IMG/VR virus record: IMGVR_UViG_3300049846_001507
Location: 1-33,410 of that record
Strand: one strand, 5' to 3'
Length of the DNA: 33,410 nucleotides
Source: a virus
Shown piece after piece: positions 2,637 to 33,410 of this stretch; the stretch's first letter is position 1, and the number at the start of each line of letters is the position of its first letter. Position numbers and translations under genes: made by a program. A model generated the notes under the pieces. That model saw only the letters and a list, made by a program, of their open reading frames with translations. It had not been told where the DNA came from and made no database searches.

Positions 2637-2813
2637 ATGATCACGACGCATCCGGTCGCAAATGTGAAAGGGTGTTGGTACGAGGTCTGGATTAAAGAGT
2701 GTGTGCTGTGTGGGAAGACGGATATTTATAAAGAGCGGCGGCTCCCGCCGAAACCTGAATTGCCGGAGTGCTACCACTTTGAACAAACCGCGTGCAGTCA
2801 ACACTTTCTGTGA
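2637..2813 (+). CDS. Small Cys-rich hypothetical protein
   Basis: The 58-residue protein (59 if the preceding ATG at 2634 is used) was placed at 2637 because GGGAGG (2626-2631) then lies 5 bases upstream. A CVLCG motif near the middle and later Cys/His (ECYHFEQTACSQH) look like a small zinc-binding knuckle. No family is recognised. The junction GAGGCGATGATG at its start recurs at the start of the next gene. Confidence 0.6.
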   Translation: MITTHPVANVKGCWYEVWIKECVLCGKTDIYKERRLPPKPELPECYHFEQTACSQHFL

Positions 2814-2820
2814 GGCGATG

Positions 2821-3057: not shown

Positions 3058-3445
3058 AGCACGACTGGACAAGCTGGAAGGACGAAAACCTGTGCAGCCG
3101 GGGGAGTTTGAGCGATTTTGGGCGGCCTACCCTAATAAGGTTGGGAAGAGAGCTGCACAGAAGGCTTTCCAGAACGCAAAGAATCGGCCCAGCATTGACG
3201 TGATCCTTGCCGCCTTAGAACGGGCCTGTAAATCGGAGAAGTGGCGCAAGGATGGTGGGGAATTTATCCCCAATCCGGCCACCTGGCTGAACCAGGGCCG
3301 GTGGGATGATGAGCCGGTTCAAATTGTCCATATTATCCCGAAGGCGATGCGACCGATTGAATGCCAGCCGAAAGAGCAGCAACCGTATAGCCCACCGCCG
3401 CCTGAAGTGCTGGCACTCCTGAACCGGATTGGGAAAGGCATGTGA
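3026..3445 (+). CDS. Replication-protein C-terminal-type domain protein
   Basis: The 139-residue protein starts at ATG 3026 after GGGAGGG. Residues 1-19 form a short coiled coil (LDARLAAIEARLDKLEG). Residues 27-95 then match the module often found at the C-terminus of phage replication initiators: FERFWAAYPNKVGKRAAQKAF, an ALERA helix, W, and FIPNPATWLNQGRW. In those proteins it follows a winged-helix or DnaD-type part and is thought to contact DNA or the helicase loader. Here it stands alone with a Pro-rich tail, so it may be a split or reduced replication protein. The domain match is good; the function is inferred. Confidence 0.68.
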   Translation: MDLDARLAAIEARLDKLEGRKPVQPGEFERFWAAYPNKVGKRAAQKAFQNAKNRPSIDVILAALERACKSEKWRKDGGEFIPNPATWLNQGRWDDEPVQIVHIIPKAMRPIECQPKEQQPYSPPPPEVLALLNRIGKGM

Positions 3446-3455
3446 TGGAGGACTT

Positions 3456-11964: not shown

Positions 11965-12457
11965 CGGGGGCCTCCATAGGTTGAGATGGTGCGCTGTCAG
12001 CGCCAGCAGAGAGGAGTTTTCGGTACTGTTGTATCACAGGTTCATATTTGAGAAAAGTCAAGAGTTTGTTGGCCACAGTATTGTCCACTTCGCACGAGAA
12101 TAGGATTTCATGGACCCCCATGGCAGCCAGCGCCCGCTCCACATGCTTAATGAACCGGATAGCGTTCATACCGTCCCGATACTGAGGATGGATGAAGAAG
12201 GTGTCTTCCGTCGCCATCAAGAGCTGGCTGTGCATGGAGGGCGTCACGTAAATTCCGAAATAGCCGATGAGTTTGCCGTCATGCCGAGCGGTAAACGCAT
12301 AGAAACAGCCCTGTCGCTCATAGGCGTCATACCGAGCCAAGGAAGGATTTAAGGGTTCATGCCTACGAAATCCCTTAGTGCCCTCCCAGTGCTGACGGGC
12401 CAGTTGCATCGCTTCATCCCAGATAGCGGAAATCGGCTCACAGGCAAAGGCAATCAC
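11933..12457 (-). CDS. GNAT-family acetyltransferase
   Basis: The 174-residue protein has the GNAT order: N-terminal helices, a strand pair (FYAFTARHDGKLIGYFGIYV), then the acetyl-CoA motif region EDTFFIHPQYRDGMNAIRFI, and later VDNTVANKLLTFLKYEPV. The CoA pyrophosphate loop (QYRDGMNA) is looser than the classic R/QxxGxG/A. GNATs transfer acetyl groups to amines of proteins or small molecules. Similar enzymes occur inside virion operons of some podoviruses, with unknown targets. Start is GTG at 12457, coupled to the upstream TGA. Confidence 0.72.
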   Translation of the reverse strand: MIAFACEPISAIWDEAMQLARQHWEGTKGFRRHEPLNPSLARYDAYERQGCFYAFTARHDGKLIGYFGIYVTPSMHSQLLMATEDTFFIHPQYRDGMNAIRFIKHVERALAAMGVHEILFSCEVDNTVANKLLTFLKYEPVIQQYRKLLSAGADSAPSQPMEAPDVCAKSTACA

Positions 12458-14016: not shown

Positions 14017-14720
14017 AGTGGCCAATTATATTCAGGAACCACAACCCCAGGACGCGCCTGCGTGAACCCATTATCCATGTAGAGTGTCGGTTTTCCGCCA
14101 TCTCGCCCCAGTGCATCCGCTACGCGCATTTCATAATCACGAAAGTCCTCGGCATATTCCAATCCGTGCTCTTTCTTCCAGCGCCAGCGGAGGCCCATAC
14201 GAACGAGTTCTTCCGGCAACAGCACGGTATCGGTGTCCAATGTAAAGGCGGATTTGTACGTGACGAGATCGGCGCCCAAAATCCAGTTCTTCGAGATGTA
14301 TTCAAAGTACACGCTATGGCCTGCCGTGGGCGTCGGGTGCATGAGCAGCTCCCCGCCACGAATGCGATAGTGATAACGCGGGGCTGTACTGACTGACGCC
14401 TTAAACCGTTGCCATTTGGTGGAATGCATCAAGGGGATAGGAAGTTTGTCCGTCCGATCCCACATCGTCTCGTCCTTAATGTACTGAAAGCCGTTTGTTG
14501 CAATCGAAGTCATAGCCCCCTGATCTTCGGTGGCTAGAGTCGTATGAGACGCTTCGAGGGTCAACCCTTCCCAGTCGCCACGCCGCGAAAGGGCTTCTCC
14601 TTCCTCCTCCAATAATGCCCGCACCTGCATGACTTGGGCATCGGACGTGCCCAGGACCGTCGAAGGCACCGGCAACTGGGTCCGTTCGCAAAAGGCTTGC
14701 ACGATGGTCAACAAGGACAT
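14013..14720 (-). CDS. Head-tail adaptor (tail tubular A / gp4-like)
   Basis: The 235-residue protein begins LTIVQAFCERTQLPVPSTVLG with LLEEEGEALSRRGDWEGLT, the characteristic start of phage adaptor proteins that dock under the portal. The middle is beta (YHYRIRGGELLMHPTP, SVYFEYISKNW). The end is helical (LLPEELVRMGLRWRWKKEHGLEYAEDF). It would extend the portal channel and bind the propeller protein encoded next. Family recognition is good. Confidence 0.78.
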   Translation of the reverse strand: MSLLTIVQAFCERTQLPVPSTVLGTSDAQVMQVRALLEEEGEALSRRGDWEGLTLEASHTTLATEDQGAMTSIATNGFQYIKDETMWDRTDKLPIPLMHSTKWQRFKASVSTAPRYHYRIRGGELLMHPTPTAGHSVYFEYISKNWILGADLVTYKSAFTLDTDTVLLPEELVRMGLRWRWKKEHGLEYAEDFRDYEMRVADALGRDGGKPTLYMDNGFTQARPGVVVPEYNWPL

Positions 14721-14723
14721 GCG

Positions 14724-14978
14724 TTACCCTTTCGTTGCAATCACCTGATCGAATTCAGCCAACTTGGCATCTGTGGCCGCTTCGAGCGTCTTGGTCAGCC
14801 GGTCGATGGTGGCACGGCGACGGTCTACAGACAGTTGCCGGATGAGTCCCGCAAACAGTTCTAGAATGGCCTGCTGGCCTTTAGGGTCAGAGAGAAACTG
14901 GCTAATCGCCGCAAATTCTTCATCAGTTAACTGCGCTCCTACCACTCGGTCGATATCATTTACAAATAATGTTGCCAT
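14724..14978 (-). CDS. Small helical virion-operon protein
   Basis: The 84-residue helical protein starts at ATG 14978, with AGGAG 9 bases upstream; a longer in-frame opening would lie in the previous gene. The body is LTDEEFAAISQFLSDP, QQAILELFAGLIRQL, VDRRRATIDRLTKTLE. No motif. It sits between the conserved Cys protein and the adaptor, so a small assembly or chaperone role is possible. Confidence 0.58.
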   Translation of the reverse strand: MATLFVNDIDRVVGAQLTDEEFAAISQFLSDPKGQQAILELFAGLIRQLSVDRRRATIDRLTKTLEAATDAKLAEFDQVIATKG

Positions 14979-15270
14979 TCGCCAAATGCTCCTCAATGGA
15001 ATGTCGCAGCATCGGAGTGATTGCAATTTCAGCTTTCTGATTTATCTTGACCATCTCATTCCGAAATGACTCAATAGCTGCGCCTGCCTGTCTCGTCTGT
15101 TGACTATTTTCGATGAGAAGAATCGGCAACCATTTGACGGCGCAATCATATTCGTCAATTAATTCCCCTGTATTCGGATTAGATCCTCGTATTTTCACGA
15201 ACCAAGCGCAGTGAAGTTTTACGCAATCTTTTTTCACGAGCGGACAATAAGTTCCCTGTTCCAGTTGCAT
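14956..15270 (-). CDS. Conserved phage Cys-motif protein
   Basis: The 104-residue protein has YCPLVKKDC, KLHCAWFVKIRG, ELIDEYDC and AVKWLPILLIENSQQTRQAGAAIESFRNEMVK. This is a conserved family found beside head-tail genes of podoviruses. Four Cys in the first half suggest a zinc or Fe-S site. The second half is a helix. ATG 15270 overlaps the fibre stop (TAATG). Biochemical role unknown; family recognition is fair to good. Confidence 0.68.
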   Translation of the reverse strand: MQLEQGTYCPLVKKDCVKLHCAWFVKIRGSNPNTGELIDEYDCAVKWLPILLIENSQQTRQAGAAIESFRNEMVKINQKAEIAITPMLRHSIEEHLANGNIICK

Positions 15271-16277
15271 TAGTCTTTGCTCGCAATAATAAGATCCACG
15301 TATTGAACTGCAATGTTTAATCCGTGCCCGTGTCCTCCATCGCCACCAACCGATGTCGATACAGCCCCATGGAGTCCCCATCCTGCACCATTGAGTACCG
15401 ATCCACCACCGGTACCATCAAGACACGTCGTTGTATGTGTATGCGATGGTATTTCAGCAGTGACCAGCGTATGACTTACCACGAACCCATCTTCTGTATG
15501 GTCGGCAAATACAGAGGTAAAGGTTCTCGTCCCTCCCGAACTTGCCGTTCCAGTCACAACGCGAAGTGCTTTATTGTTATGAGTCACTTGTTTTGTCCAT
15601 CCCGTCGGTGCTGACGTTTGCTGGAACAGCATCAGAGTGCCAGAAGGGATTGGGCTTACGGTATCGACATATTGTTTTGGGGCGATTCCCAGATTGGTGA
15701 CTGGATTAGCCGATACTGTGCCAGTCACAATCACTGGGCTATTGATCGTTGAAGTCGCTGCGCTTTCAAGGATAAACCTCGTGCCGTCGTAGGTGATCTC
15801 GACCATCATGCCGGATGGAATATCGCCAGCCGCCAAGGCTGTCGTCCCATTCTTGGTGATGGCCTTGGCGCCAAGTCCAGAGACATTGACTGTCACATTG
15901 GTCGTATTGGCCCCACTGGCAATGAAACGGAAAGTCTGACCTGCGGTGTAGGAGGTAATCGCAGGTGAGGGCGTTAAGGTGATAACATCGGCTGTACCGC
16001 CAACGGTCCCAACATAGACGCCAGTACCATCTTGGACATTACCGATGTTGGCCGCATCGGTTCTGGCCGTGCCCGCCGCGAGGCCGGTAATCTTATTGGA
16101 CCCCATTGGGATATTGGCCGTGACGGTGGTTTGGCCATCTTTGGTGATACAGGTCGAGAGCCCTGTCGCCAGATCGGCGGTCAAGTTATTGAACACTGTA
16201 GGGTCAATATCCGTACCGGCCACAACTGGCTGCCCCGCTGTATTGATCTGGAAAAGGCCCGATCCGTTAAAACTCAC
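15270..16277 (-). CDS. Tail fibre protein with collar-type C-terminus
   Basis: The 335-residue protein starts (GTG at 16277, seven bases after GGAGGTGTCCT) with FNGSGLFQINTAGQPVVAGTDIDPTVFNNLT, a virion-attachment segment common to podovirus fibres. Beta-rich repeats follow. From about residue 215 there is a collar-like tip: IPSGTLMLFQQTSAPTGWTKQ, KALRVVTG, GTRTFTSVF. A His-rich end (SHTHTTT, GGHGHG) could bind metal as in trimeric fibre tips. It should mediate host recognition. No reverse transcriptase or variable-repeat pair is visible, unlike the BPP-1 fibre. Confidence 0.78.
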   Translation of the reverse strand: MSFNGSGLFQINTAGQPVVAGTDIDPTVFNNLTADLATGLSTCITKDGQTTVTANIPMGSNKITGLAAGTARTDAANIGNVQDGTGVYVGTVGGTADVITLTPSPAITSYTAGQTFRFIASGANTTNVTVNVSGLGAKAITKNGTTALAAGDIPSGMMVEITYDGTRFILESAATSTINSPVIVTGTVSANPVTNLGIAPKQYVDTVSPIPSGTLMLFQQTSAPTGWTKQVTHNNKALRVVTGTASSGGTRTFTSVFADHTEDGFVVSHTLVTAEIPSHTHTTTCLDGTGGGSVLNGAGWGLHGAVSTSVGGDGGHGHGLNIAVQYVDLIIASKD

Positions 16278-19523: not shown

Positions 19524-20489
19524 TTACTCAATGATGACGCCCTGCAACTTCCGGTTGGAGCAGGTCAGGTTGCCCATCCACAAGATCGGCACCACTTCGC
19601 CATCCTGGTTCACGGGTTCTTTCTTGGACATTTCATCCAAGTCCGCATCCTGGTGCGTGACGAGTTTCAGGTAATTGGTGTTGAGCAGATACGCATGGCT
19701 CGACGGAATGCCGGACGCCGTGGTGTCATACAACACCGTGGCGGATTTATACTTCAGACCCAAGATCCCGGCCTGCAAGTCTTCGGCGCTCGCATACCGC
19801 TTGAGCGAGGTCTGCGAGGCTTCAAAGTACTTGTAGTACACGCTATCCATCACAATGAGATCGGGCGCATCGCCCATCCCACGGTCCAGGTCCAGCCAAA
19901 TCGGGAGCAACATCGAATTTTCAATCGTGTTGGCCCCCGATGTCACGCTGCTGACGCTACAATCGAACAACGTCCGCTCCCAGAATGTCCAGGTGCTGGA
20001 TGAAATGCCACCGAGGGTGCTGCCAGTGGAATCAGGCACAATGGCCTGCAAGCCCCCAATCTGGTTAGACAGCGAGCCAGACGAATACAAGTCGCTAGAG
20101 AAGTTGTTGTCGAAAGTCCGGTAGGCGTTCTTCATGCGAGCCGCTACCAGTTTCTCCAACTGCGCCTCTCCGCTGTTAATGCGGAGTTCGCGCCCACTCG
20201 CCACCACATGGATGGCAATCTGCTTCCAAGGAAACTCTGCCGCCGTCAACACATCGGAGGCAGAGATGTTCAGCGTATCCCAATCGGAATACCGCTGATA
20301 GGTGTTGTTCGAGGTATAGTCGAGCGGCTCCACAATACTCAGGCCGCCGTCTTCCGTCCGGTAGTTGCCCTTCTTGTAGATGTACTTCAAGAGCGCATTC
20401 CGGTTCGTCAAGTTATCCTTGATACCCTTTTTGTGCTTCCGGTGGGTCGTCGTGACCAACTCGGTAAAATAACTATTCGGTGATGGCAT
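19524..20489 (-). CDS. Major capsid protein
   Basis: The 321-residue protein begins SPNSYFTELVTTTHRKHKKGIKDNL and has SIVEPLDYTSNNTYQRYS, LTAAEFPWKQIAIHVVASG, QLEKLVAARMKNAYRTFDNNFSSDLYS, QIGGLQAIV, DAPDLIVMDSVYY, and NLTCSNRKLQGVI at the end. These are features of an HK97-fold major capsid family seen in podoviruses and siphoviruses. The scaffold gene precedes it and a decoration candidate follows. Size is normal for the family. Confidence 0.88.
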   Translation of the reverse strand: MPSPNSYFTELVTTTHRKHKKGIKDNLTNRNALLKYIYKKGNYRTEDGGLSIVEPLDYTSNNTYQRYSDWDTLNISASDVLTAAEFPWKQIAIHVVASGRELRINSGEAQLEKLVAARMKNAYRTFDNNFSSDLYSSGSLSNQIGGLQAIVPDSTGSTLGGISSSTWTFWERTLFDCSVSSVTSGANTIENSMLLPIWLDLDRGMGDAPDLIVMDSVYYKYFEASQTSLKRYASAEDLQAGILGLKYKSATVLYDTTASGIPSSHAYLLNTNYLKLVTHQDADLDEMSKKEPVNQDGEVVPILWMGNLTCSNRKLQGVIIE

Positions 20490-21984: not shown

Positions 21985-22412
21985 TGCATCTCCGGGGTCA
22001 ATCGCACGGGTTCTGCCGTCAACCCTTGATGAATCACTTCTTTCGCCAACTGCGCCTTCTTCGCAGGCGGCATCTTGGCAATTTCGGTATAGACCGTTTC
22101 CTCGATCTTGGCCTCAAACTCCTGCTGGACTGCCTCACGGCGCCGATCCACGTCCTTTTTCATCTCCGGGTCATATTCGACACAGCCATGCCGAGCCATA
22201 TCCTCCCGCCGCGCCGCATGCGACTGCACGGGTTGTCCGGTAATCGGGCTGCGATAATGCACATCAGGAGCAATCGTAACCATTGGACTTGTAAAGAGTC
22301 TTTCGGATTGTTCGCCACAGGTTCCACATGGAACAGTCTCACGATAGCACTTCACTGGCACCATCTCTTCGGTCAGATGAGCCGCTTTACAGCGATACAC
22401 GTAGGTTGGCAT
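21981..22412 (-). CDS. FmdB-type zinc-ribbon protein
   Basis: The 143-residue protein starts MPTYVYRCKAAHLTEEM, with a second pair PCGTCGEQSERLFTSP. This is the FmdB/CxxC putative regulatory zinc ribbon found at the N-terminus of many phage and bacterial proteins. A helical C-terminus follows (KKDVDRRREAVQQEFEAKIEETVY). ATG 22412 is preferred over an in-frame GTG at 22421, as the family begins MPTY. The gene overlaps the end of the GT8-like gene by 26 bases. The ribbon call is good; its role in the phage is unknown. Confidence 0.72.
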   Translation of the reverse strand: MPTYVYRCKAAHLTEEMVPVKCYRETVPCGTCGEQSERLFTSPMVTIAPDVHYRSPITGQPVQSHAARREDMARHGCVEYDPEMKKDVDRRREAVQQEFEAKIEETVYTEIAKMPPAKKAQLAKEVIHQGLTAEPVRLTPEMQ

Positions 22413-23085
22413 AAGGTGCACTCATTAAGTCATATTCCGCATGCCACAGATTGGCATGGTCGCACGTCGCATACCCCTCAAAGCATGGCGTCCCAAGGGT
22501 ATAGTGCAACAGTTTAGCCTTCTCGTTCTGGTCATACTCTCCTACCAGCCAATTCCACTGAAGCGGCAAAGCCCCGATCTTGTCCTCAAACGTCCACTTG
22601 AATTGATGGAGGTCGAGCCCTGTCGCCGTATTGACATACTCTGGTGTCAATTGCCGACAGAGGGCATTATTGAACAGCATGACACTCGACCAGTTCTTAC
22701 AGCGGTAGGGTGTCTGGACCTGATTCAGAAACTTCCGATCTGATTTCGGAATATAGTCATGCTGCACCACCTGTACGGCCTTTTTAGGGTAGGCCAAGCC
22801 GTAGAAGAACAGCTCGCCAATATCCGCCTGACAGAGCATGTCACAGTCCAGAAACAAGGAATGGCCTTCGTATCCAGAGAGATACGGGACCAGGAACCGT
22901 GAGAGCGAGAAGTCCGTCGATTCCAGCGGACCTCGTGAACGACGATAGGTCTGTTCAATTTGTGAGCGCATGACCGGCGTAATGCTCACCGGAACAGACG
23001 CATGACGCAGAATGGAATGGCTTAGGACGTGATACGCCACGGTCTCTTTCTGGTCATAGCCAATAAAGACTTGCAATGGCTTCAC
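22387..23085 (-). CDS. Glycosyltransferase, GT8-like
   Basis: The 232-residue protein begins (GTG 23085, right after the upstream stop) KPLQVFIGYDQKETVAYHVLSHSILRHAS. It contains FLVPYLSGYEGHSLFLDCDML, where the DxD of the metal/nucleotide-sugar site lies, and later WSSVMLFNNALC, W-NWLVGEYD and LHYTLGTPCFEGY, as in GT8-type GT-A enzymes. It would transfer a hexose from a UDP-sugar. It lies among virion beta proteins and ends overlapping the FmdB-like gene. Confidence 0.78.
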   Translation of the reverse strand: MKPLQVFIGYDQKETVAYHVLSHSILRHASVPVSITPVMRSQIEQTYRRSRGPLESTDFSLSRFLVPYLSGYEGHSLFLDCDMLCQADIGELFFYGLAYPKKAVQVVQHDYIPKSDRKFLNQVQTPYRCKNWSSVMLFNNALCRQLTPEYVNTATGLDLHQFKWTFEDKIGALPLQWNWLVGEYDQNEKAKLLHYTLGTPCFEGYATCDHANLWHAEYDLMSAPYANLRVSL

Positions 23086-23087
23086 GA

Positions 23088-23366
23088 TTAGGACACCCCT
23101 GGCACTACAAAGAAGGTCACATCCAGGGTGTTCGCAATGGTGGCATGCAGCCCGCCTCGGCACCCTGCTGGAAACTTGTGCCATCCAATAGCAGGTGTAA
23201 TAGTCCCGCCAAGCACAGTCCCGCCAGATCCGCCTTTACGTAGAACGAGCGTACCACTCGTTGTGGAATTCACATAGAATCCCAACAGGATACAATTCGT
23301 AGTCAGAATCACATCCCCGGTTGCCGTTAGATTGACTGTTGTCCCATAGCCCTGCGTGATTGTCAT
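23088..23366 (-). CDS. Small beta-rich virion-type protein
   Basis: The 92-residue beta-rich protein (ITQGYGTTVNLTATGDVILTT, LLGFYVNSTTSGTLVLRKGG, TITPAIGWHKFPAG) has the composition of small fibre or decoration proteins and no enzyme motif. It lies between the repeat protein and the GT8-like gene. A GAGG site precedes its ATG. Likely a surface structural subunit. Confidence 0.58.
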   Translation of the reverse strand: MTITQGYGTTVNLTATGDVILTTNCILLGFYVNSTTSGTLVLRKGGSGGTVLGGTITPAIGWHKFPAGCRGGLHATIANTLDVTFFVVPGVS

Positions 23367-23378
23367 AGTCCCTCCTCG

Positions 23379-25097
23379 TTACAGAAACCATTCCCACTCA
23401 GCTTCATCCTCATCGAGTAACCACTGGTGATAGGCATCCAGCTCTTGCTGGAGTTGTTGAATACGTTCGGTATATACCTGCTGTTGCTGGGCCAACCCCA
23501 GAAGCCGACCCATCGCCTTGTCCACTTTCCGCTCAAGAACCGTGGGGGCATCAGAGCTGACGACCGGCAGAGGCGCCGTTGCAATCTCTGGCTCGCCCGC
23601 GATAAGCGCATGAATCGTTGCTTGAATATCACGGTAAATATCTTCGAGCGGTTTCGGTTTGCGACGTTTTCTTGGTGCATCATCGCCTCCCCGAACAACT
23701 GACGTAATAATGACATTTGGCCCATCTGGTGTAACAACCGCCAATCGTGCCGATGGCCATATTACTCTGACATGCTCTTCCCATTGCTGACGAATCGTGG
23801 CAGACCACGGCTGATAGCCTATTGGAGGATTATCAGTCTGCTCAGGATTGACTAAAGGCTTGGCTTCCTGGAACGCTGGATCAGGCGGAATCCAGCATGT
23901 CGCAATAATATCGAAGTTAGGGTGCCGTGACGTGAAGGGTGGATTATCGTGAACATCGGGAATGGGCGTCTTGCGTGTGGTTTGGCTGTCCCATTCCGGT
24001 ATAGTCCATAGAGTAATTGGCCCCGCAGCTTGTCGTGTAAATGCCTGTTGCGGAACAATCGCGGGCCCGCTCGGTGTGACGACGGCTCGGCGTGGTTGTG
24101 GATAATCCGCCTCTTTCCACGTCGAGACGATACCGTAGAGTGTGTCCAGTGAGGATGGAATCAGTGAGGATAGGTCAATTATCCGATTGAACCAGACTGC
24201 TTGAAGCGGACGTGGTTCCCATTGGTCGTAAATATGCGTAATCAGCGGGTCGCGTGGAGGCGGATTGTCAGCAGGTCCAACCGTGGGACCGTCTTGAAGC
24301 CCAACAGTTCCCTGCAGTGTACTGAGTGTGACCGCATTCCACCGGTCTATCGTGGCATAGTTGAGGACTCGCGCCGGTGGTTGATCGCCTGCTACGACGA
24401 CGGTGGGGATAGGCGTATACCGTTGCCCTGGAATCGTCCAGGTGGTGGGCTCCCATTGGGCAATGGGTTGCGAAGTGGCGTCAGACCAGGCCGCTGGATC
24501 ATGCCGATCTGGAATGGGTGTCTTGAGTGTAACCTGCGTAGGCCAATCCGGCTGTGGCCACATCCATACTGGTGCCGCCAACTCTGGCACATAGGGAACC
24601 GACGATGGGGCAATGACGGCATCAGGAATGGGCGTTTTGAGCGTAACTTGCGTCGGCCAGTCAGGTTGCGGCCACCGATCGACCAATAGTGGGAACGAGT
24701 AGGCCGCTGGGTCGTGACGATCAGGGATTGGCGCTTTCTCGGTCGTCTGACTTGGCCAGTCATTTTGTGGCCAAAGCGCCACCGCAGGCGAGGTCCCTGG
24801 TTTCTGCTGTACCCAATCATGTCGATCGGGAATGGGGGTCTTCCGCGTATATTGCGTATCCCAGGTGGTCGGCTCCCAGACCCGTATCACCGCTTGGCGA
24901 TGATCGGTCTTGGGCGGGGGGTTATCAACTCGTGTTTGATAGCCGACCGTGGCAAAGAGGGGTGTGACGGCAACAAGACTCCAGGTCGCCAGCACGCCAC
25001 CCATAATGGCGTTCCGCAACGCGGTCGATGGCTGAGAAGACGAGATGGGCCCGCCCTGAAAGGCATTCGGCTGGAAGGCATTCGGCTGAAAGCTCAT
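23379..25097 (-). CDS. Large Trp/Pro-rich repeat protein, putative virion appendage
   Basis: The 572-residue protein begins with an FQPNAFQ repeat (SFQPNAFQPNAFQGGP), a start known from some phage virion proteins. A hydrophobic segment follows (residues 30-50). About 11 tandem units of 33-40 residues then start at Trp74, 109, 142, 180, 215, 253, 293, 327, 364, 402 and 439. Best units read WPQPDWPTQVTLKTPIPD, followed by RHDP or DNPP. A basic hinge (RKRRKPK) and a C-terminal coiled coil (VDKAMGRLLGLAQQQQVYTERI) end it. No enzyme motif and no family that I recognise. Neighbours are GT and MTase genes, so it may be the glycan acceptor. Confidence 0.6.
   Translation of the reverse strand: MSFQPNAFQPNAFQGGPISSSQPSTALRNAIMGGVLATWSLVAVTPLFATVGYQTRVDNPPPKTDHRQAVIRVWEPTTWDTQYTRKTPIPDRHDWVQQKPGTSPAVALWPQNDWPSQTTEKAPIPDRHDPAAYSFPLLVDRWPQPDWPTQVTLKTPIPDAVIAPSSVPYVPELAAPVWMWPQPDWPTQVTLKTPIPDRHDPAAWSDATSQPIAQWEPTTWTIPGQRYTPIPTVVVAGDQPPARVLNYATIDRWNAVTLSTLQGTVGLQDGPTVGPADNPPPRDPLITHIYDQWEPRPLQAVWFNRIIDLSSLIPSSLDTLYGIVSTWKEADYPQPRRAVVTPSGPAIVPQQAFTRQAAGPITLWTIPEWDSQTTRKTPIPDVHDNPPFTSRHPNFDIIATCWIPPDPAFQEAKPLVNPEQTDNPPIGYQPWSATIRQQWEEHVRVIWPSARLAVVTPDGPNVIITSVVRGGDDAPRKRRKPKPLEDIYRDIQATIHALIAGEPEIATAPLPVVSSDAPTVLERKVDKAMGRLLGLAQQQQVYTERIQQLQQELDAYHQWLLDEDEAEWEWFL
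23718..24878 (-). repeat. Coding tandem repeat, about 36 residues (about 110 bases) per unit
   Basis: Eleven Trp-started units with a mean spacing near 36.5 residues lie within the 572-residue protein. Units 3 and 4 (from residues 142 and 180) are identical over 18 residues. Units 1, 2, 5 and 9 share W..(N/D/T)W..Q.T.KTPIP. Units 6-8, 10 and 11 are degenerate but keep the first Trp and often a following proline. The decay pattern suggests old duplication with local recent conversion. Confidence 0.7.
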
Positions 25098-25648
25098 GCT
25101 TTAATCAACGTCGCAATGAGTTGTTGGGCTGCTTCTTTGAAGAACGAGACTGCATGTTGTTGATATTCCGGCGTTCTGGCCGTCACGCTCTGATGGAGGC
25201 CATACCCTAATGTGTGCTCAAAGTTACAGGTATAGCCATCAGGGTCTTTGTAATTCTGTGCCTCTCGCCAGGCTTTATTGAGACGGGGATACCAGGCTTC
25301 TGTGACTGGCGGCCATTGCACCGTGACATCACCATAGGCTGCGCAGGCTGCCCAATAGGGGGTAATGATCGTGGCCTTGGCCCCAGGTTTGAGCACGCGA
25401 TAGAGTTCATGGACAAAATGGATCCGTTCGGTAGGCGTCAAGTAATTGACCAAATAGCCGCAATGGACTTCATCGACGGTGTTCTTCCCCCACGGCCATC
25501 GCTTCCGCAGATCCACGACGCGCACGCCAGGAGACGCCTGCTTGTCAATTTTGAGAAACCCGTCAGGAGTCACCGTGCCTTTTCCACAACCCAGATCGAG
25601 CTTGAGTAACGGTGAGTCCTTCACTTCGACGAACTTCTTTTTTACCAT
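25094..25648 (-). CDS. SAM-dependent methyltransferase (class I)
   Basis: The 184-residue protein has LLKLDLGCGKGTVTPDGFLKIDK (motif I and the acidic residue after strand 2), VRVVDLRKRWPW, VDEVHCGYLVNYLT, and HELYRVLKPGAKATIITPYWA (post-motif strand 5). This is the fold of glycan and small-molecule methyltransferases in phage clusters. ATG 25648 overlaps the GT stop, and its TGA overlaps the repeat-protein ATG (ATGA). It is translationally coupled between a glycosyltransferase and a putative surface protein. Confidence 0.78.
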   Translation of the reverse strand: MVKKKFVEVKDSPLLKLDLGCGKGTVTPDGFLKIDKQASPGVRVVDLRKRWPWGKNTVDEVHCGYLVNYLTPTERIHFVHELYRVLKPGAKATIITPYWAACAAYGDVTVQWPPVTEAWYPRLNKAWREAQNYKDPDGYTCNFEHTLGYGLHQSVTARTPEYQQHAVSFFKEAAQQLIATLIKA

Positions 25649-26364
25649 GTCGTATCCGTCTCCACGTCGTAATGCCCGACCTTCACCGAACAATCAATGG
25701 CGACCCGATAGCCATGCTTCCTGAAGTCGGTCCAGGCATAGAGGTCTTGTGTGGCAATCCCATCCTTCTTCTGGGTGACAAACCAGGGACGCCGCAGCCG
25801 TTTATCCTTGAACATCTTGAGCCGCCACAGGTTAAATCCCATCCCGCTCCCGCAGCATTCCACCAATCCCCCGTTTGGGTCGGGTAACTGTGGACGGAAA
25901 TTCAGCACTGGATCACGAGGATCACCCCAGATTTGCGCCACGCCGCCTTCGCCCTTGGTGTAGTACAACCCGCCGATACAGTCGAAGCGGGGATTGGCTT
26001 CCATCCGTTCCAGTAACTTGATGACGCCATCGGCTGGCGGCATATTGTCATGTTCCATCGTCAACAGGTATTCCCAGGTCGAAAGTTCAGGGTGTGCAAG
26101 AATCTGGTCAATCGCCGTCGAATAGGCTTCGCCTACTTCCATCCCAATCGCCAGTAGCCGTGCGACCCCATTGTTGGGCGGGAACGCCAAGTTCCAATGG
26201 GAGAGGGCGACTTTAGCAGGAATGGTGGCACTGGCCGGTAAGAGGACGATAATCCGTTGCCGCTTCCAGCTTTTGCTTTTATCCAGCCGCGCACGCGTCT
26301 TGCCGACATCGCCATTATGGCGTCCAGCGGTCGGCATCTCTTGAATGAGCAATTGCGGTTTCAT
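25642..26364 (-). CDS. Glycosyltransferase-like protein (GT-A, family 2-type)
   Basis: The 240-residue protein has RIIVLLPASATIPAKVALSHWNLAFPPNNG, EAYSTAIDQILAHPELSTWEYLLTMEHDN (acidic site equivalent to DxD), ERMEANPRFDCIGGLYYTKGEGG, GSGMGFNLWRLKMF and DLYAWTDFRKHGYRVAIDCSVKVGHYD. The order fits GT-A phage glycosyltransferases, with a C-terminal His after the catalytic loop. ATG 26364 overlaps the fibre stop (TGATG). It lies between an appendage gene and a methyltransferase. Confidence 0.74.
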   Translation of the reverse strand: MKPQLLIQEMPTAGRHNGDVGKTRARLDKSKSWKRQRIIVLLPASATIPAKVALSHWNLAFPPNNGVARLLAIGMEVGEAYSTAIDQILAHPELSTWEYLLTMEHDNMPPADGVIKLLERMEANPRFDCIGGLYYTKGEGGVAQIWGDPRDPVLNFRPQLPDPNGGLVECCGSGMGFNLWRLKMFKDKRLRRPWFVTQKKDGIATQDLYAWTDFRKHGYRVAIDCSVKVGHYDVETDTTW

Positions 26365-27461
26365 CAGTACGTACTCAACCAATTGTGCCAGTACATTTGT
26401 CCGGTCGTCCCGCGAATATCAGCGGTCCCCAAGCTCGCGGTCGCTTGCGTCGTGCTGGTCGCCAAGAATCCGTGGAAGGGCCTGACGTTCGTGGTGCTAT
26501 TACTCACCGACAACCCTTGCCGTTTGTAGGCGTTGACCAATCCATCGACCTGCCCTAGGACGCTCCCTACGCCAAAGTTTGTGCCGAGGGCAGCGATGCC
26601 ACCAGACGTGCCCGCACTGGCCGAGGTCGAAAAAGTCATGCGCCCGACCCAGAAAATAGTGGGTGGAAGCGTTGTGGACATTCCAAAAATCGCCATAATC
26701 GACCCGCTCAGGTAGGCTCCAACACCTGAAATGAGCGAATCGTATCGTGTCGAGGCCATGGTACTGGCGGACAGATTGCTGGTGCCGCTGGTGGCGGTTG
26801 AGGTATAGGTCACGCCGCCATTAGAGTCCCACTGCCCTGGGAAACTAAGAGTCAGATAATTGGTAAATGAGCCTGAACTGGTGTTGGCCGTCGAGAGCCG
26901 CATTTCGTTCGTAGCAATCCACGAGTTCTGCGCCGTCCAGTAGGATTCGAGTCGTGTGGTATTGGCTCCTGACGCTTGCGTGTAAATGGCCCAATGATTG
27001 TATTGCGTGATCGTGCGCGTGACTGAGCCGGTTGACGCGGCTGAATACGCTGCGCCACCCGCAAAGTTGGCAGGGAAGGCAAAGAGAGCGTGAATCTGCC
27101 CCTTCGCCAACGCTTGATCGTTTTCATAGGGACCGTCAAAGTACCACGTGCCGTTCGACATCGAACTGAGGGACATCTGTGTGGACGCCGTATTGAAGAG
27201 GGGGAACGGCACAAACCACGGGTCAGATTGAATCCCCACCGAGATGCCGCCCGCTGCCGTGGAACTGGACAGGCCGCTCCCAAACTGAAACACCGGCGCC
27301 ACTTCAGACGCCGACAGACTCACCACATGGTTGGAGTTCCAGTCGATAGGGCGCACGAGGTTCGAGGCTTGATCGGTGGTGGTGCCACCAGTACTGTTAT
27401 TGATCGTGACAACGCCAGACCAGTCGGCAATGGTATCGCTTTTGGCATGGGTTACCGGCAT
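26364..27461 (-). CDS. Putative virion appendage / fibre protein
   Basis: The 365-residue protein starts PVTHAKSDTIADWSGVVTINNSTGGTTTDQASNLVRPIDWNSNHV, an N-terminus recurrent in phage appendage proteins. It is then rich in Ser, Thr, Gly and Ala with beta strands (SSMSNGTWYFDGPYEND, TITQYNHWAIYTQASGANTTRLE, FWVGRMTFSTS). High Ser/Thr content would supply many O-glycosylation sites. GT and MTase genes lie on both sides. Structural class is fair; exact location in the virion is unknown. Confidence 0.62.
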   Translation of the reverse strand: MPVTHAKSDTIADWSGVVTINNSTGGTTTDQASNLVRPIDWNSNHVVSLSASEVAPVFQFGSGLSSSTAAGGISVGIQSDPWFVPFPLFNTASTQMSLSSMSNGTWYFDGPYENDQALAKGQIHALFAFPANFAGGAAYSAASTGSVTRTITQYNHWAIYTQASGANTTRLESYWTAQNSWIATNEMRLSTANTSSGSFTNYLTLSFPGQWDSNGGVTYTSTATSGTSNLSASTMASTRYDSLISGVGAYLSGSIMAIFGMSTTLPPTIFWVGRMTFSTSASAGTSGGIAALGTNFGVGSVLGQVDGLVNAYKRQGLSVSNSTTNVRPFHGFLATSTTQATASLGTADIRGTTGQMYWHNWLSTY

Positions 27462-28036
27462 GCGAGTCCCAAGTCCTTTCGCTGTTGGAGCGTCGGCCTC
27501 GTCAAGAACGCCAACGCCTCAATGTTCCATTGCTCCGACGACACATAGACCGAATGAAATCCGGCTTCACGTAACGTCGCCGCCAGCGACTTCACGGTAA
27601 ATCCGCACTTATGGGCGTAGTACAGATTCCCGCGTTCCATCTGCGCGCCCCATCCATACAGGACATCGTGGAAGCGAATCGGCCCGCCATTACTGATGTA
27701 CCAGGTATCCATGAGGTCTTTCTTGCCTGTGACCACCGCGTCCATCAGTGCACCCAGATCGGGCACTTTGATATGGGCAAAGCCTTTCGGCTTCAGGACA
27801 TGCTTGAACCCCTGCAAGACCGTAGGCACATCATGCCGATAGAAATGTTCGAGATTATGGGAGCAATACACTGCGTCATACCGCGCACGCGCCAATGACG
27901 CCATGTCTTTCGCATCACAACAAATATCCGGGTGGACAGCAGGATCAATGTCCAGCACGTCCTGCTGCCACCCCTGATAGGATGAAGGCAACACACGCGA
28001 GGCGCCGCCTCCCACATTGAGTACGTGCTTTATCAC
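27452..28036 (-). CDS. SAM-dependent methyltransferase (class I)
   Basis: The 194-residue protein has HVLNVGGGASRVLP (motif I), QDVLDIDPAVHPDICCDAKDM (motif II acidic residues), YDAVYCSHNLEHFYRHDV and FKHVLKPKGFAHIKVPDLGAL, and a C-terminal GFTVKSLAATLREAGFHSVYV. The start is GTG 28036 after AGGGG; two alternative hairpins cover that site. It overlaps the appendage gene by 10 bases. It is the third such methyltransferase in the operon and has the same LEHF core as the one at 16923. Confidence 0.8.
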   Translation of the reverse strand: MIKHVLNVGGGASRVLPSSYQGWQQDVLDIDPAVHPDICCDAKDMASLARARYDAVYCSHNLEHFYRHDVPTVLQGFKHVLKPKGFAHIKVPDLGALMDAVVTGKKDLMDTWYISNGGPIRFHDVLYGWGAQMERGNLYYAHKCGFTVKSLAATLREAGFHSVYVSSEQWNIEALAFLTRPTLQQRKDLGLACR

Positions 28037-28038
28037 GA

Positions 28039-28072
28039 GCCCCTAGGAGTGGGGCCAGCCAAAGCCAGCCCC
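28039..28072 (-). promoter_or_regulatory. Mutually exclusive hairpins over a ribosome site
   Basis: On the minus strand GCCCC (28055-28051) can pair upstream with GGGGC (28072-28068), extended by four more pairs round TTTG. It can also pair downstream with GGGGC (28043-28039), which includes the AGGGG ribosome site of the methyltransferase gene. Only one can form at a time. No T-tract follows, so it is not a terminator. The switch role is inferred. Confidence 0.35.
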
Positions 28073-28085
28073 CTCCATCAGCGAA

Positions 28086-28583
28086 TTACTCTTCTGCGTA
28101 GATCAATCCTGCCGACCAGTTCGCCAGAGATGAGGGAGTCGTCAGTAGACCTACTCCTATGCCACTGGTTGAACCCGCAGGCATCGAAATGACTTCTTTG
28201 GGTGTCGCCACCCACAGATACCCGTTCAGGTTGTTGAAGTTATCGGTGATGAAGTTCACGATGGTGCCGGTGGCCGCTACGCTTGAATTGGTTCCTGAAG
28301 TCCCGGCGGCTCCCGCCGTACCACCCGTGATGGTCGAGGCCGGTCCTGCCTGCTTGAGTGCAACAGGAGACGTGTTCGTATATGTGCCAAAGGCAGTGCT
28401 GACCTGCTCGATCACGACCGCTAACTGGGCGCTGGTCGCCGTGCTGCTCTGAGTCATCCACGCCCGAATAAAGTTGAGATTGGGCTTTGGCGCGGCAGCC
28501 GGGTTAATAAAGACCTGGTACACCTTGGTCGCCGGTGTCAGGGCAATAGTGGCGTTCTTCATCGTCACGCTATATTCCATCAT
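28086..28583 (-). CDS. Small beta-rich virion protein
   Basis: The 165-residue protein (MEYSVTMKNATIALTPATKVYQVF, FIRAWMTQSSTATSAQLAVVIEQVS, VNFITDNFNNLNGYLWVATPKEVISMP, SLANWSAGLIYAEE) has the pattern of a recurrent phage virion protein family with an 'RAW(I/M)TQS' core and a C-terminal 'NAGLIF' strand. It is probably a surface or appendage subunit. It may start at either of the two first Met codons. No enzyme motif. Confidence 0.62.
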   Translation of the reverse strand: MMEYSVTMKNATIALTPATKVYQVFINPAAAPKPNLNFIRAWMTQSSTATSAQLAVVIEQVSTAFGTYTNTSPVALKQAGPASTITGGTAGAAGTSGTNSSVAATGTIVNFITDNFNNLNGYLWVATPKEVISMPAGSTSGIGVGLLTTPSSLANWSAGLIYAEE

Positions 28584-28652
28584 ACTCGCACCCTCCTTGT
28601 GAAAAGAACTGACTCCAGGTGCGCCACGCCTGGAATAATTGGGCGCAAGTTT

Positions 28653-28940
28653 CTATACAAACTGATTGCCGTTCCACACCTTCCAGCCCTGCCGTGTAAA
28701 GATCCGCACTTTATTATTGCGTCGTTCGATCCGACTACCCCATTCGCCGGTCTGGTGTCCATTACGAATGATGGAGAAACTAAACTCCCCATTGGGCGCA
28801 TCGCGCTGCTGTTGATATTCAGTCCCCAAGGTAAAGACATCGCCCCGTTCATCATGCACCCAGGCGGCTGGAGGCGAAGAGACATAATTCTCCGTGATGA
28901 ACAATTGTTCTTTCGGCTTGAGCATATAATCAAAGATCAT
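28653..28940 (-). CDS. Small beta-rich hypothetical protein
   Basis: The 95-residue protein (IFDYMLKPKEQLFITENYVSS, DERGDVFTLGTEYQQQ, GEFSFSIIRNGHQTG, KVRIFTRQGWKVWNGNQF) is strand-rich and charged, with paired strands typical of a small barrel. ATG 28940 starts just after the upstream stop. A competing minus-strand frame at 28580-28933 has a composition unlike protein and is rejected. Unassigned, probably virion-associated by position. Confidence 0.58.
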   Translation of the reverse strand: MIFDYMLKPKEQLFITENYVSSPPAAWVHDERGDVFTLGTEYQQQRDAPNGEFSFSIIRNGHQTGEWGSRIERRNNKVRIFTRQGWKVWNGNQFV

Positions 28941-28943
28941 GAA

Positions 28944-29618
28944 TCACCCTTGTGAGTAAATGAAGCCTTGAAGACGTTTGCCGAGTCCGGTAATCGTCGT
29001 GCCGCCGCCAGCCGCCACTTGAGCGATATTGACACCAGAAGAGACCCATGCACTACTGGTAATTGTCCATGAATGGACATTAGACGCAGAACCGGCAGCC
29101 GTGCTCCCGGCAATTGTCGCAAAGTCATTTGTGGCCCATCGTTGAGTTTGACTCGGAGAAGAAGGAATATCGTTAGCACGATCTCCGGTCACATCTTGCG
29201 TCATATCGCCAGAAGTGCTTGAAATAGTCACGCTGGCGGTTGTGCCGCTCCCATTGGCAAAAGTTCCGTTCGTAAACGGAGTGGTCTGATCGGCTCCAGT
29301 TGCCGTCATGACAGCAATATCTGCAGTACAGGCATTCGTCCAAGACATCGTACCTGTTTGGCTGCCAGTTGGAGGCGCAATGACCCCCATTATGTTCGTC
29401 TGAACTTCACTCTGAAGTCCGGTATTGGTCCCCGTGATTTGCGTGGCTGAAACCCCTCCGACGCTCCCACTAAATCCTGTACAAGCTACCGTAATCGCCC
29501 ATGCACTGAAACTGATGGTAGCAACACGATTCGATCCAGAAATCGTAAAACTGCCGGTGGTCAAATTAGTTACTCCATCGCCACCTGTTGTCACACTATT
29601 ATCATATGCGACAGCCAT
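28944..29618 (-). CDS. Ser/Thr/Gly-rich beta protein, putative appendage
   Basis: The 224-residue protein is Ser/Thr/Gly-rich with regular strands (NRVATISFSAWAITVACTGFSGSVGG, GTMSWTNACTADIAVMTATGAD, NVHSWTITSSAWVSSGVNIAQV), like adhesin or Ig-like fibre domains. It has two Cys but no signal peptide. It lies among other beta proteins between portal and scaffold. Likely virion surface; the specific part is unknown. Confidence 0.58.
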   Translation of the reverse strand: MAVAYDNSVTTGGDGVTNLTTGSFTISGSNRVATISFSAWAITVACTGFSGSVGGVSATQITGTNTGLQSEVQTNIMGVIAPPTGSQTGTMSWTNACTADIAVMTATGADQTTPFTNGTFANGSGTTASVTISSTSGDMTQDVTGDRANDIPSSPSQTQRWATNDFATIAGSTAAGSASNVHSWTITSSAWVSSGVNIAQVAAGGGTTITGLGKRLQGFIYSQG

Positions 29619-29620
29619 TG

Positions 29621-29950
29621 TTACTCCACTATCAGTGTCACACCAAATGTAACTGCACTAGAAACCCATAGAAATGCCTTGGCTTTCCGCCCCTGTCCAG
29701 TAGGTAACGCAATAGTAAGACGAGAGGCTGAGCCACTTTGAGGTCCACCCGTACCGGCTGATCCCCAAGGCATCCAGGTGGTTCCGCCATCCAGGGACCC
29801 CATCACGCCCCAGCACACGCCAGGCATATCAACCCCACCATGGTCAATGGCGATTGTCGCACGCGAAAGACCATCAGGAATCGTAATGGGTCCAAATTCT
29901 CTCACGCCCTCCGATTGCAATGCCGTAGATACTAATGTCGTCGTTGCCAT
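29621..29950 (-). CDS. Small beta-rich virion-type protein
   Basis: The 109-residue protein (TTTLVSTALQSEGVREFGPITIPDGLSRATIAIDHGG, CWGVMGSLDGGTTWMPWGS, AKAFLWVSSAVTFGVTLIVE) has 'SLDGGTTW' of the kind seen in beta-sandwich or BNR-like turns. Probably a small sandwich subunit. It follows the membrane beta-helix gene directly (1-base gap). Role unknown. Confidence 0.56.
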   Translation of the reverse strand: MATTTLVSTALQSEGVREFGPITIPDGLSRATIAIDHGGVDMPGVCWGVMGSLDGGTTWMPWGSAGTGGPQSGSASRLTIALPTGQGRKAKAFLWVSSAVTFGVTLIVE

Positions 29951-32146
29951 TTACGATTTCCTCTTCACAAGAGCCGAGAGAAGTACATTGACCGTTTGCA
30001 CTGTCGAAACGGTCGTCTGGTAGGTCAGCGCCTTTGTTCGCGTGGCTGTCGTGGCCATCACCGAGGATGTTCCCACTGCAACACACATGACACCAGCCAT
30101 AATGGGTTTACGAAAATGCCACAACGCTCCCAATATGCAGGCACCCCATTCCATAAATATGACAACTCGTATCAATTGAACATTAGATGACCCAGTAGAG
30201 ATAGGGGTGATGGTGTAGCAGACCTCAGGATCAAAAAGGAGAAAGCCACTTGAATCAAATGGCCCTGCGTTATAACAGGCTTGAGCCGGGTTTGAGGCTG
30301 TCAGCGAAGCATGCCCACCAGGGCCGCTCCCCCCTGTCACGTCAGGGCCAATAGCAGGCCAGGGAATCGTATTCCACCACCAGGACGGCTTAGACGATTT
30401 ATAGAAGGAGGCTGGGAGCGTATCGTTTGGATTCGCTGGATTATGCCCAGACGGGATATTGTAATCATACTGGGTTGCGGCATCTGCATGAGTATAATTA
30501 CCATGCGTCAAGGACGTGGCAAACGGCATACAATTCGCTCGCACAGAACCCGTACATGTTCCACTTCCGTTCGTATCTGTGATGTCATAATAGCCATACG
30601 AAATGTCGTACCCATCCACGTACGTATCTCGTGATGTTTCCGTTGCCACAATGTATGCAATATGATTTCCGCCTGGTGGTTTCGTCACTGTTGCAACATT
30701 CCCGACAATGTTTGATTGATACGAGAGAAAATCCACTTCAATCGCTTCAATCCCTTGTGTGGCCGTATGGCACGCACCCGCTGTGCCACGTGCATTGTAG
30801 GGCAAGCAGATTTCCGTGGTGCCTGTTACATAATTCCGAAAGAGAGTTTCCCAACTCCCTGACCCCCAGTAGGATTCCACGCGAATCTGATCGAGGACAT
30901 TCCCTTCCCATAGATTCATCTGATGGTGACTACCATGCATGGCCATATCAAACATCAGCACATTTTGCGCGGTAAAGTCGTAGTGCTTATCTGAAAAATT
31001 ATAGCCCACGACATTGCCAGCCGGACCTGCATTCAGATCCACAGCTAGGTGCATGCGAGTGAGAATGTTATTTTCTACTAACGTGCCGGTCGTACTCTCG
31101 CCAATCCAAATATCGCTATCAGACGAACCGGATTGATGTAGAAAGGAATCATGAAAATAACTGTCACGGATTTCATTCCAGAGTGAGTACCAGCACTGAA
31201 CGTGATCGGCATCAGAGAAGTTCGACTCAATCCCTTTCACCCAACAATTCAAACATGAGCCCATGCGAATATTTTTATCGAGTCCGGTGTTATTGGCGAA
31301 CACCTGCACAAGTTCAAGCCCTGCCAACTGTGCCGCAGGCGCATAGGCAGACGCCTGTGGGGTATGCGTATAGCCATAGTACAAGCCAGGACTAATTCCA
31401 ATGGTTGTTCCACTAACGGACGTAATCTTTGAAATCTGCCGACGCACACGGCCCCCGCTAAACCATTCATCGCACCACGTACAACCATTATTATCAACGA
31501 AGGCGGCATCGTTTAGTTCGTTGATATGAATCAGATTCCCCACCACCATATTCGTGGTAGCCGACACGGTAATGGATGTTGATCCAGCGGAGGTACCTCC
31601 TGTAATCGAGACCACATTGGCGCTCACGTCCTGATCGCTTTCCGTTCCCAGTACGATTGCTGCACCACTTGTCCGATGTAAATCTAGAATCGTATTACGT
31701 GGGCCAGCCCCGCGCAATGTCACATTAGATGGGATACTCAATGATGTATTGATGCGAAAGGTTCCTGCCGCCAAGAGGACATAGCCTCCCGCTCCACTCA
31801 AGGGATGGGACGAGGCGCAATCTGTCAGTGCCGTCTGAATGGTTGACGTGGCATCAACTCCCGCGCCAGGGGAATTGATGGTACTCCCGCATTGCGTCCG
31901 ATTGGTTGGGATGCCTCCTTGAACTCCGGCGGAAGTCCAATCAGTTGTCGCTCGCGAGGCATCAAGCACTCCGCTCCATAATTGGGCCTGCCCGTGCACA
32001 TCAGGGGACAAGATCATCCCCATCAGGATGAGCGGGAGCCATTTCCGTGACTGCCGGTAGCGTTGCACCAGCGCCACCAGATTCAGAATGATATAGATGG
32101 CGGCCACAATCGCGGTCACACTCTCGGCCACCCGAATCACCCACAT
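29951..32146 (-). CDS. Membrane-anchored right-handed beta-helix (pectate-lyase-like) protein
   Basis: The 731-residue protein has an N-terminal membrane span (about 8-30) and a second signal-like stretch (WLPLILMGMILSPDVHGQ, 36-53). A parallel beta-helix domain follows from about 55 to 640 with GGYVLLAAGTFRIN, SNVTLRGAGPRNTILDLH, MHLAVDLNAGPAGNVVGYNFSD and NLWEGNVLDQIRVESYWGS. Cys pairs (CTWC, CLNC) suggest disulfides outside the cytoplasm. Two more spans lie near 657-676 and 682-698. Such folds bind or cut polysaccharides. The Sec-type ends are odd for a virion tailspike; it may act on the host envelope. GGAGG precedes ATG 32146. Confidence 0.66.
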   Translation of the reverse strand: MWVIRVAESVTAIVAAIYIILNLVALVQRYRQSRKWLPLILMGMILSPDVHGQAQLWSGVLDASRATTDWTSAGVQGGIPTNRTQCGSTINSPGAGVDATSTIQTALTDCASSHPLSGAGGYVLLAAGTFRINTSLSIPSNVTLRGAGPRNTILDLHRTSGAAIVLGTESDQDVSANVVSITGGTSAGSTSITVSATTNMVVGNLIHINELNDAAFVDNNGCTWCDEWFSGGRVRRQISKITSVSGTTIGISPGLYYGYTHTPQASAYAPAAQLAGLELVQVFANNTGLDKNIRMGSCLNCWVKGIESNFSDADHVQCWYSLWNEIRDSYFHDSFLHQSGSSDSDIWIGESTTGTLVENNILTRMHLAVDLNAGPAGNVVGYNFSDKHYDFTAQNVLMFDMAMHGSHHQMNLWEGNVLDQIRVESYWGSGSWETLFRNYVTGTTEICLPYNARGTAGACHTATQGIEAIEVDFLSYQSNIVGNVATVTKPPGGNHIAYIVATETSRDTYVDGYDISYGYYDITDTNGSGTCTGSVRANCMPFATSLTHGNYTHADAATQYDYNIPSGHNPANPNDTLPASFYKSSKPSWWWNTIPWPAIGPDVTGGSGPGGHASLTASNPAQACYNAGPFDSSGFLLFDPEVCYTITPISTGSSNVQLIRVVIFMEWGACILGALWHFRKPIMAGVMCVAVGTSSVMATTATRTKALTYQTTVSTVQTVNVLLSALVKRKS

Positions 32147-32194
32147 ATACCTACCTCCGACACCACCACCAACACCCCCATCGCTTCCACCAAC

Positions 32195-32575
32195 TTAGGG
32201 CGTCACACCGACGACACGGAGATTCGTCGGGGCCTGGGGAGGGTTTACATTCACACTTGTCCCTACACTATTTGAAAACAACGATTCATTATTGGCGGTA
32301 TCAAAGGCCGTCAGGCGATAGCAATACTGCCCATCAGCCGTCACGGTATCACTACCTGTCGTCACTTTCCCAAACGTCTGCACCGTCGCAAACGCGCCAG
32401 GGGTCGCACAGGCGCCAGGAGCGCGGTAGAGTTTATAGCCCGCGAGATCGCTTTCGGTGTTCGCGTCCCACGCGAGGTTCACGGTGGCGGCGTGCGCGCT
32501 GAACGTCATCATCCACAGGATGCCCACAAAAATCACACTGAAGCGTGCGAGCCTTTCGAGGCGTTGGGTCCACAT
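32195..32575 (-). CDS. Secreted fibronectin type III domain protein
   Basis: The 126-residue product has a signal peptide (basic [12 protein letters not shown], then [13 protein letters not shown], then SAHA) and one FN3 domain: [43 protein letters not shown], and a [11 protein letters not shown] tail. Two Cys may pair. FN3 modules bind carbohydrate or protein. Cellular homologues are exported; finding one in a phage late operon implies host-envelope work or recent host origin. TGGAGG lies 9 bases before ATG 32575, which is inside the preceding zinc-ribbon gene. Confidence 0.72.
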
Positions 32576-32666
32576 GCGGCAGTTCCTCCAGTAATTTATT
32601 AAGGCACTTCAAACATAACTTAGCATCACTGCCATTGTCCGGTTCATGCCAAGGGCACCACGGCAT
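32433..32666 (-). CDS. Small zinc-ribbon protein overlapping the FN3 gene
   Basis: The 77-residue protein starts in a TAATG overlap with the portal stop. It carries CPWH (4-7), CLKC (18-21) and CDFCG (44-48), enough for a zinc site, and a very basic tail ([20 protein letters not shown]). The last 143 bases also encode the FN3 signal peptide in another frame. The C-terminal tail looks like a by-product of the overlap. The Cys part through residue 52 looks genuine. Role unknown. Confidence 0.5.
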
Positions 32667-33410
32667 TACGCCATCACTTCTTCCTCGACTCGTTCAATGC
32701 GTCCATCACGTCCACGCACGGCTTTCTTGACGCGAGGTTTCGAGATCACTTCAACCAGCCGTTGATTGTCAGCAGCTTGTTGACCCACCGCTTTGACGAG
32801 CTGCTCGACGAGTCCTTGCATCGACTTCAAACCTTGTCCCAGCGCCGTATCGGCCTTTTGATTGACCGCATTCTCAGTTTTATACTTCTTATTCTCCAAA
32901 TCGGCCACTTTCTGCTTCATCCCGATTTCATTCGAGGCGTGTTGTTTCTGCATATCCAACGTGGTCTTCTCGACTTGCTGCTGCATCCCGAACTGTTGCT
33001 CCTTGGCCTGTAAGGCCATTTCACGCATCTGCAAGTCGATTTCCCGCTGCTTATGCTCCATCTCCGCTTGCATTGCCTTTTCCTGTAAGGCCATTTCAGA
33101 CTGTTTCTGTTTGAATTGCACTTCCTGTGTGGCCTGTTGCTTCTGCATCTCCAACTGCTTCATCTGCATGTCGGCTTCTTTCCCGTCATTCTCCGGCGGC
33201 GGCGGCTTCATCGCCTTCAAGGAATCTTCAATCTCCTGACCGAATCGGAACCGCCGCGCAATCGCCAACATCATGGACTGCGCCGCTTCAAACGGCATGA
33301 CGCCTTTGGCCACCAACGGCCCCACTCCATTGAGGTACTGACCGAGCATGCCCAACAGGTCGGCAATCGCTTTCTGATCCTCGGCGGCTTCGGGTTCGAC
33401 CGTGCTATTC
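32666..33410 (-). CDS. Portal protein, C-terminal part (runs off the window)
   Basis: The open frame continues to the right edge, giving 247 residues. LLGMLGQYLNGVGPLVAKGVMPFEAAQSMMLAIARRFRFGQEIEDSL is typical of the C-terminal region of podovirus portal proteins. It is followed by a Pro linker (KPPPPEN) and a Gln/Met-rich coiled coil of about 110 residues (MKQLEMQKQQATQEVQF, KTTLDMQKQHASNEIGM), the portal barrel extension. The portal forms the 12-subunit DNA channel at the head vertex. It is expected to lead the late operon. Confidence 0.75.
   Translation of the reverse strand, partial: NSTVEPEAAEDQKAIADLLGMLGQYLNGVGPLVAKGVMPFEAAQSMMLAIARRFRFGQEIEDSLKAMKPPPPENDGKEADMQMKQLEMQKQQATQEVQFKQKQSEMALQEKAMQAEMEHKQREIDLQMREMALQAKEQQFGMQQQVEKTTLDMQKQHASNEIGMKQKVADLENKKYKTENAVNQKADTALGQGLKSMQGLVEQLVKAVGQQAADNQRLVEVISKPRVKKAVRGRDGRIERVEEEVMA

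Follow-up and report, generated by a model that had tools for sequence, protein, structure and literature searches.

Gene content of the locus

The window (the whole 33,410-nucleotide stretch of viral DNA analysed here) carries P0001, a real, uncharacterised phage protein that is a very long form of a widespread group defined by an N-terminal FQ leader. Its gene is a genuine open reading frame of 572 codons at 23379–25097, the coordinates given in an earlier sequence-only reading, and lies on the minus strand. One direct homologue was found in IMG/VR, in the unannotated virus L187 (IMGVR_UViG_3300049924_000176). The features of P0001, followed by those of its neighbourhood, are:

23379..25097, minus strand: P0001, 572-residue FQ-leader protein with Trp/Pro repeats (open frame from ATG to stop, ATGA overlap, L187 homologue 44% identical)
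25056..25097, minus strand: FQ leader MSFQPNAFQPNAFQ, residues 1–14 (Tandem Repeats Finder, motif scan, synonymous codon variation)
24948..25010, minus strand: hydrophobic stretch, residues 30–50 (Kyte-Doolittle, alignment with L187)
24399..24923, minus strand: five-unit Trp/Pro array, residues 59–233, with W74, W109, W142, W180 and W215 (profile and shuffle tests)
24054..24398, minus strand: region with W253, W293 and W327, regularly spaced, repeat status unproven, colinear in L187 (shuffle tests, alignment)
23949..24053, minus strand: sixth certain unit, W364, residues 349–383 (profile and shuffle tests)
23691..23948, minus strand: Trp/Pro-rich region with W402 and W439, indistinguishable from shuffles (shuffle tests, L187 alignment)
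23382..23690, minus strand: C-terminal part, residues 470–572 (AF2, layout shared with short FQ members, marginal sequence homology)
25094..25693, minus strand: methyltransferase MT1, directly upstream of P0001 (Pfam Methyltransf_11; homologues at the corresponding position in L073 and L187)
25642..26382, minus strand: glycosyltransferase-like gene GT2like (weak PHROG glycosyltransferase match, E 0.0035)
26364..27461, minus strand: p365, 365-residue fibre-like protein with VRPIDWNSNH near its N-terminus (77% identical L187 protein, DWNxxH motif)
22387..23184, minus strand: GT8 glycosyltransferase, downstream of P0001 (Pfam Glyco_transf_8, E 4.3e-6)
19524..20489, minus strand: major capsid protein, Mx8-like (phrog_9953, E 1.6e-72; 35.8% to Myxococcus phage Mx8)

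The gene order is p365, with its DWNSNH motif three genes upstream of P0001, then GT2like, MT1, P0001, p92, GT8, ZnRib, p101, scaffold and capsid; the setting described earlier, with a methyltransferase on one side and a small beta-like ORF and GT8 on the other, is correct. Between portal and scaffold, at 22387–32575, genes for fibre proteins, glycosyltransferases and methyltransferases take up about 10 kb; the related phages L003 and L005 have none there. Positions 10846–16277 contain a phrog_5107 match (labelled amidase, E 6e-108) together with tail and virion structural matches. Only the C-terminal part of a portal protein is matched, at 32666–33355, and no terminase was found among the proteins searched; the record is probably a fragment.

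Architecture of P0001

The leader coincides with a 15-bp DNA repeat of 2.5 copies at 25056–25092, detected by Tandem Repeats Finder. An explanation of the leader at the DNA level was set aside in view of synonymous codon variation at conserved positions. The hydrophobic stretch at residues 30–50 has a Kyte-Doolittle 19-residue mean of 1.74 in P0001 and 1.96 in L187. Its conservation between the two would suit a membrane segment, and hence an intracellular accessory protein with a membrane or host-takeover role, but the operon position amid fibre and modification genes speaks against such a role and the stretch, compared in P0001 and L187, may be a divergent repeat; this explanation is very improbable. 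The C-terminal part comprises the basic stretch GGDDAPRKRRK, helices at 484–499 and 518–571, and an acidic-aromatic end, DEDEAEWEWFL, so that an acidic-hydrophobic tail, LLDEDEAEWEWFL, follows the last helix.

The Trp/Pro repeat

The sequence-only reading had proposed eleven repeat units, the later ones decayed but in phase. All eleven tryptophan positions and the steps of 33–40 residues are as it gave them, and in every array unit (W74, W109, W142, W180 and W215) a second tryptophan follows five residues after the first. Its statement that the best units are identical also holds, with the W142 and W180 units sharing WPQPDWPTQVTLKTPIPD residue for residue. The DNA of these two 18-residue stretches matches at 44 of 54 bases (10/54 differ) and 8 of 18 codons are shared, and this divergence despite protein identity indicates an old duplication kept at the protein level rather than a fresh one.

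A profile trained on the best units picks out six (W74, W109, W142, W180, W215 and W364) with i-Evalues of 1e-17 to 1e-21, values that are circular for the units used in training. In leave-one-out, W-anchored, ungapped tests the same six beat all shuffles. With the P0001 profile, the units at W253, W293, W327, W402 and W439 do not score above composition-matched shuffles (p 0.10–0.65). With a profile from L187 units alone, W327 reaches p 0.03 and its L187 counterpart p 0.0025, and W253, W293, W402 and W439 remain at p 0.30–0.68. Taken over both profiles, six of the proposed units are certain, one is weak and four are unproven. Residues ~215–415, which hold most of the weak units, are well conserved and colinear in L187.

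At the thresholds used, no Pfam, PHROGs or NCBIfam family matches the protein, and its best PDB match has an E-value of 0.73, in agreement with the earlier remark that the pattern fits no known repeat class. Whole-protein searches of IMG/VR and INPHARED found nothing, and a scan with a two-sequence alignment of P0001 and its L187 homologue returned the L187 contig and nothing further. That same alignment was the input for an AF2 model of P0001, which has a mean pLDDT of 29.6, shows coil at pLDDT ~20–35 through the repeats and is confident in the last C-terminal helix only (block pLDDT 71–81). The solenoid or propeller fold suggested earlier is unsupported, being neither favoured nor excluded by this low-confidence model.

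The homologue in L187

The L187 protein, reached through a search with the neighbouring GT2like gene, occupies the same slot and is 44% identical to P0001 over 465 residues. Like P0001, it has the leader, the hydrophobic stretch, the Trp/Pro array and the same upstream genes; unlike P0001, its units have different ends (TGPEVYP), and it lacks the C-terminal ~150 residues, including the helical acidic tail. Nothing in P0001 beyond about residue 415 has a counterpart there. The array comprises six units in L187 and five in P0001; unit number, which the sequence-only reading had proposed to compare among phages, thus differs in the one homologue compared. The whole module p126-p95-p165-MT2-p365-GT2like-MT1-P0001 recurs in L187 at 44–84% identity. 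The window's capsid protein is absent from the L187 phage, which has a Phage_capsid_4-like capsid protein below the Pfam cut-off.

The FQ-leader group

The sequence-only reading had noted the FQPNAFQ leader, which is indeed present, and had missed that it marks a widespread group with a neighbourhood of its own. The N-terminus of P0001 fits the pattern FQ.NAFQ..AFQ, which a pattern scan found in at least 119 viral loci; most FQ proteins were gathered by this motif, so the conservation of the leader partly reflects how they were selected. Among the matches listed, an acidic-hydrophobic tail is present in 81 of 111 leader proteins, whereas the figure for background ORFs is 90 of 3,882; the 111 include P0001, and many are closely related to each other. 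The group is common and appears to be undescribed: it seems to be absent from the family libraries searched, annotated phages in the collection gave no meaningful match, no useful relative emerged from a genome_contigs scan for the leader, and literature searches for the motif returned no relevant paper.

Short members are ~157 aa long and are predicted to consist of a disordered leader and two helices. P0001 has a similar layout, except that several hundred further residues separate its leader from its helices. Homology of its C-terminus to the short members is weak and, at the sequence level, at best marginal: comparison with the largest short-member cluster gives p 0.014 by global shuffle and 0.087 by local shuffle, and comparison with L082 gives p ~0.002–0.004 as the best single case of 12 profiles tried.

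A common leader with very different middles is found in L173, L174, L188 and L264. The L174 protein (1356–3455) has 700 residues with ~40-residue KWFxPLSEPVR repeats, lies directly after GT2like and MT1 homologues, and has no PHROG or NCBIfam match. A 688-residue Pro-rich FQ-leader protein is encoded in L264 (1334–3397), with a spike-like gene, a DWNSAH gene and a GT2like homologue upstream. Loose leader variants, NFAFQVSGAFQ and NFAYQVTNFAYQ, follow a methyltransferase in L240 and L249, and the L240 protein also has basic and acidic stretches; these variants suggest that the leader is broader than the pattern scanned.

Association with fibre-like genes

In the main FQ group terminase and portal come first, then a fibre-like gene of 500–850 aa and the FQ gene; one or two small or glycosyltransferase-like genes separate the latter from scaffold and capsid, and the capsid protein is homologous to that of the window. 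A DWNxxH gene lies at most four genes upstream in 51 of the 72 leader-plus-acidic-tail loci among the matches listed, against 1 of 457 background genes, and none lies within four genes downstream of those 72 loci. For about 29% of these leader-plus-tail loci, the genes examined upstream include no DWNxxH gene. Several DWNxxH proteins encoded upstream of FQ genes have matches among PHROG tail or tail-spike families.

That the FQ gene follows a fibre-like gene, and that short members are predicted to be two helices with a disordered leader, would also fit a chaperone or scaffold-like helper for the upstream-encoded fibre, absent from the mature particle. Repeat middles of several hundred residues that vary among phages are hard to square with a chaperone, and such an assembly factor is improbable.

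The main-group slot between portal and scaffold/capsid could instead point to a head decoration or head-fibre protein on the capsid or portal. The modules of L187, L173 and L174 lie elsewhere, by tail-like or head-tail joining-like genes, and L187 has another capsid type, which makes a head location decidedly improbable. The glycosyltransferase-methyltransferase-FQ triad adjoins tail-like genes in L173 and head-tail joining-like genes in L174 (both judged from the sequences, with no profile match).

The FQ gene varies among phages related to that of the window. The slot relative L073 encodes an FQ protein of only 82 aa and the capsid relatives L003, L005 and L008–L010 have no FQ gene in the slot, which argues that the P0001 gene is accessory. 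In phages whose portal or capsid is related, the portal-scaffold stretch examined contains no FQ gene.

Neighbouring modification enzymes

The P0001 array may be mainly an acceptor decorated by GT2like and MT1 that shields or alters the particle surface, an account that is compatible with a place in a fibre module and is itself rather doubtful. The MT1 and P0001 genes overlap by ATGA, the order GT2like-MT1-FQ recurs in several phages, and threonine makes up 10% of the middle region of P0001. In addition, FQ proteins exceed 200 aa in 6 of the 8 clusters preceded by GT2like or MT1 and in 1 of the 13 others (Fisher p 0.003; 21 clusters), although this test is biased in that several pair-positive loci were fetched by glycosyltransferase search. 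Long FQ proteins may thus be associated with an upstream glycosyltransferase-methyltransferase pair, a correlative pattern. Against the acceptor account, the pair-positive clusters L055 and L122 are short, many of the GT2like loci (63 related loci in all) have no FQ gene, and the enzymes could act on the fibre, host sugars or DNA instead. Glycan acceptor, as the sequence-only reading suggested, is a plausible candidate role for the protein.

Proposed role and comparison with known systems

P0001 is quite possibly an accessory virion protein of the host-contact apparatus, part of a fibre or spike module. FQ genes usually lie downstream of a DWNxxH tail-fibre-like gene, and the whole module is found in phages with different capsids; from this we infer a location on the virion. 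The leader would dock the protein to the particle or fibre base, and the helical acidic C-terminus of many members may dock it too, although this tail is missing in L187 and other long members and is therefore not a universal anchor. The middle would stand free and extended, and phages would lengthen, shorten or replace it. In P0001 this middle is the Trp/Pro/Thr-rich array of ~35-residue units; it would serve as a spacer or interaction surface, and the enzymes of the neighbouring genes may modify it. The best reading is that the FQ protein travels with the fibre module and that the Trp/Pro array is an extended spacer or a modification substrate.

A broader and doubtful proposal is that the FQ leader serves phage appendages as a general docking tag. 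Such a short N-terminal peptide would attach interchangeable, often enzymatically modified repeat proteins beside the DWNxxH fibre in phages of different kinds, with the glycosyltransferase-methyltransferase pair travelling as a matching modification cassette. If true, it would offer a handle for annotating many phage proteins and finding fibre modules in metagenomes, as well as a route to test how phages diversify and modify their surface.

The head module of Myxococcus phage Mx8 (Mx8p44–p48) resembles that of the window in its homologous capsid and in the order terminase, portal, small gene, scaffold and capsid, but its FQ slot has no gene. Tail fibres and spikes have a conserved N-terminal anchor and a variable body. 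P0001 differs from them in that it matches no tail-fibre family, has no predicted fold and has a 14-residue FQ motif as its conserved element. Like them, it combines a short conserved N-terminal element with an exchangeable, repeat-rich body and a position in a fibre module.
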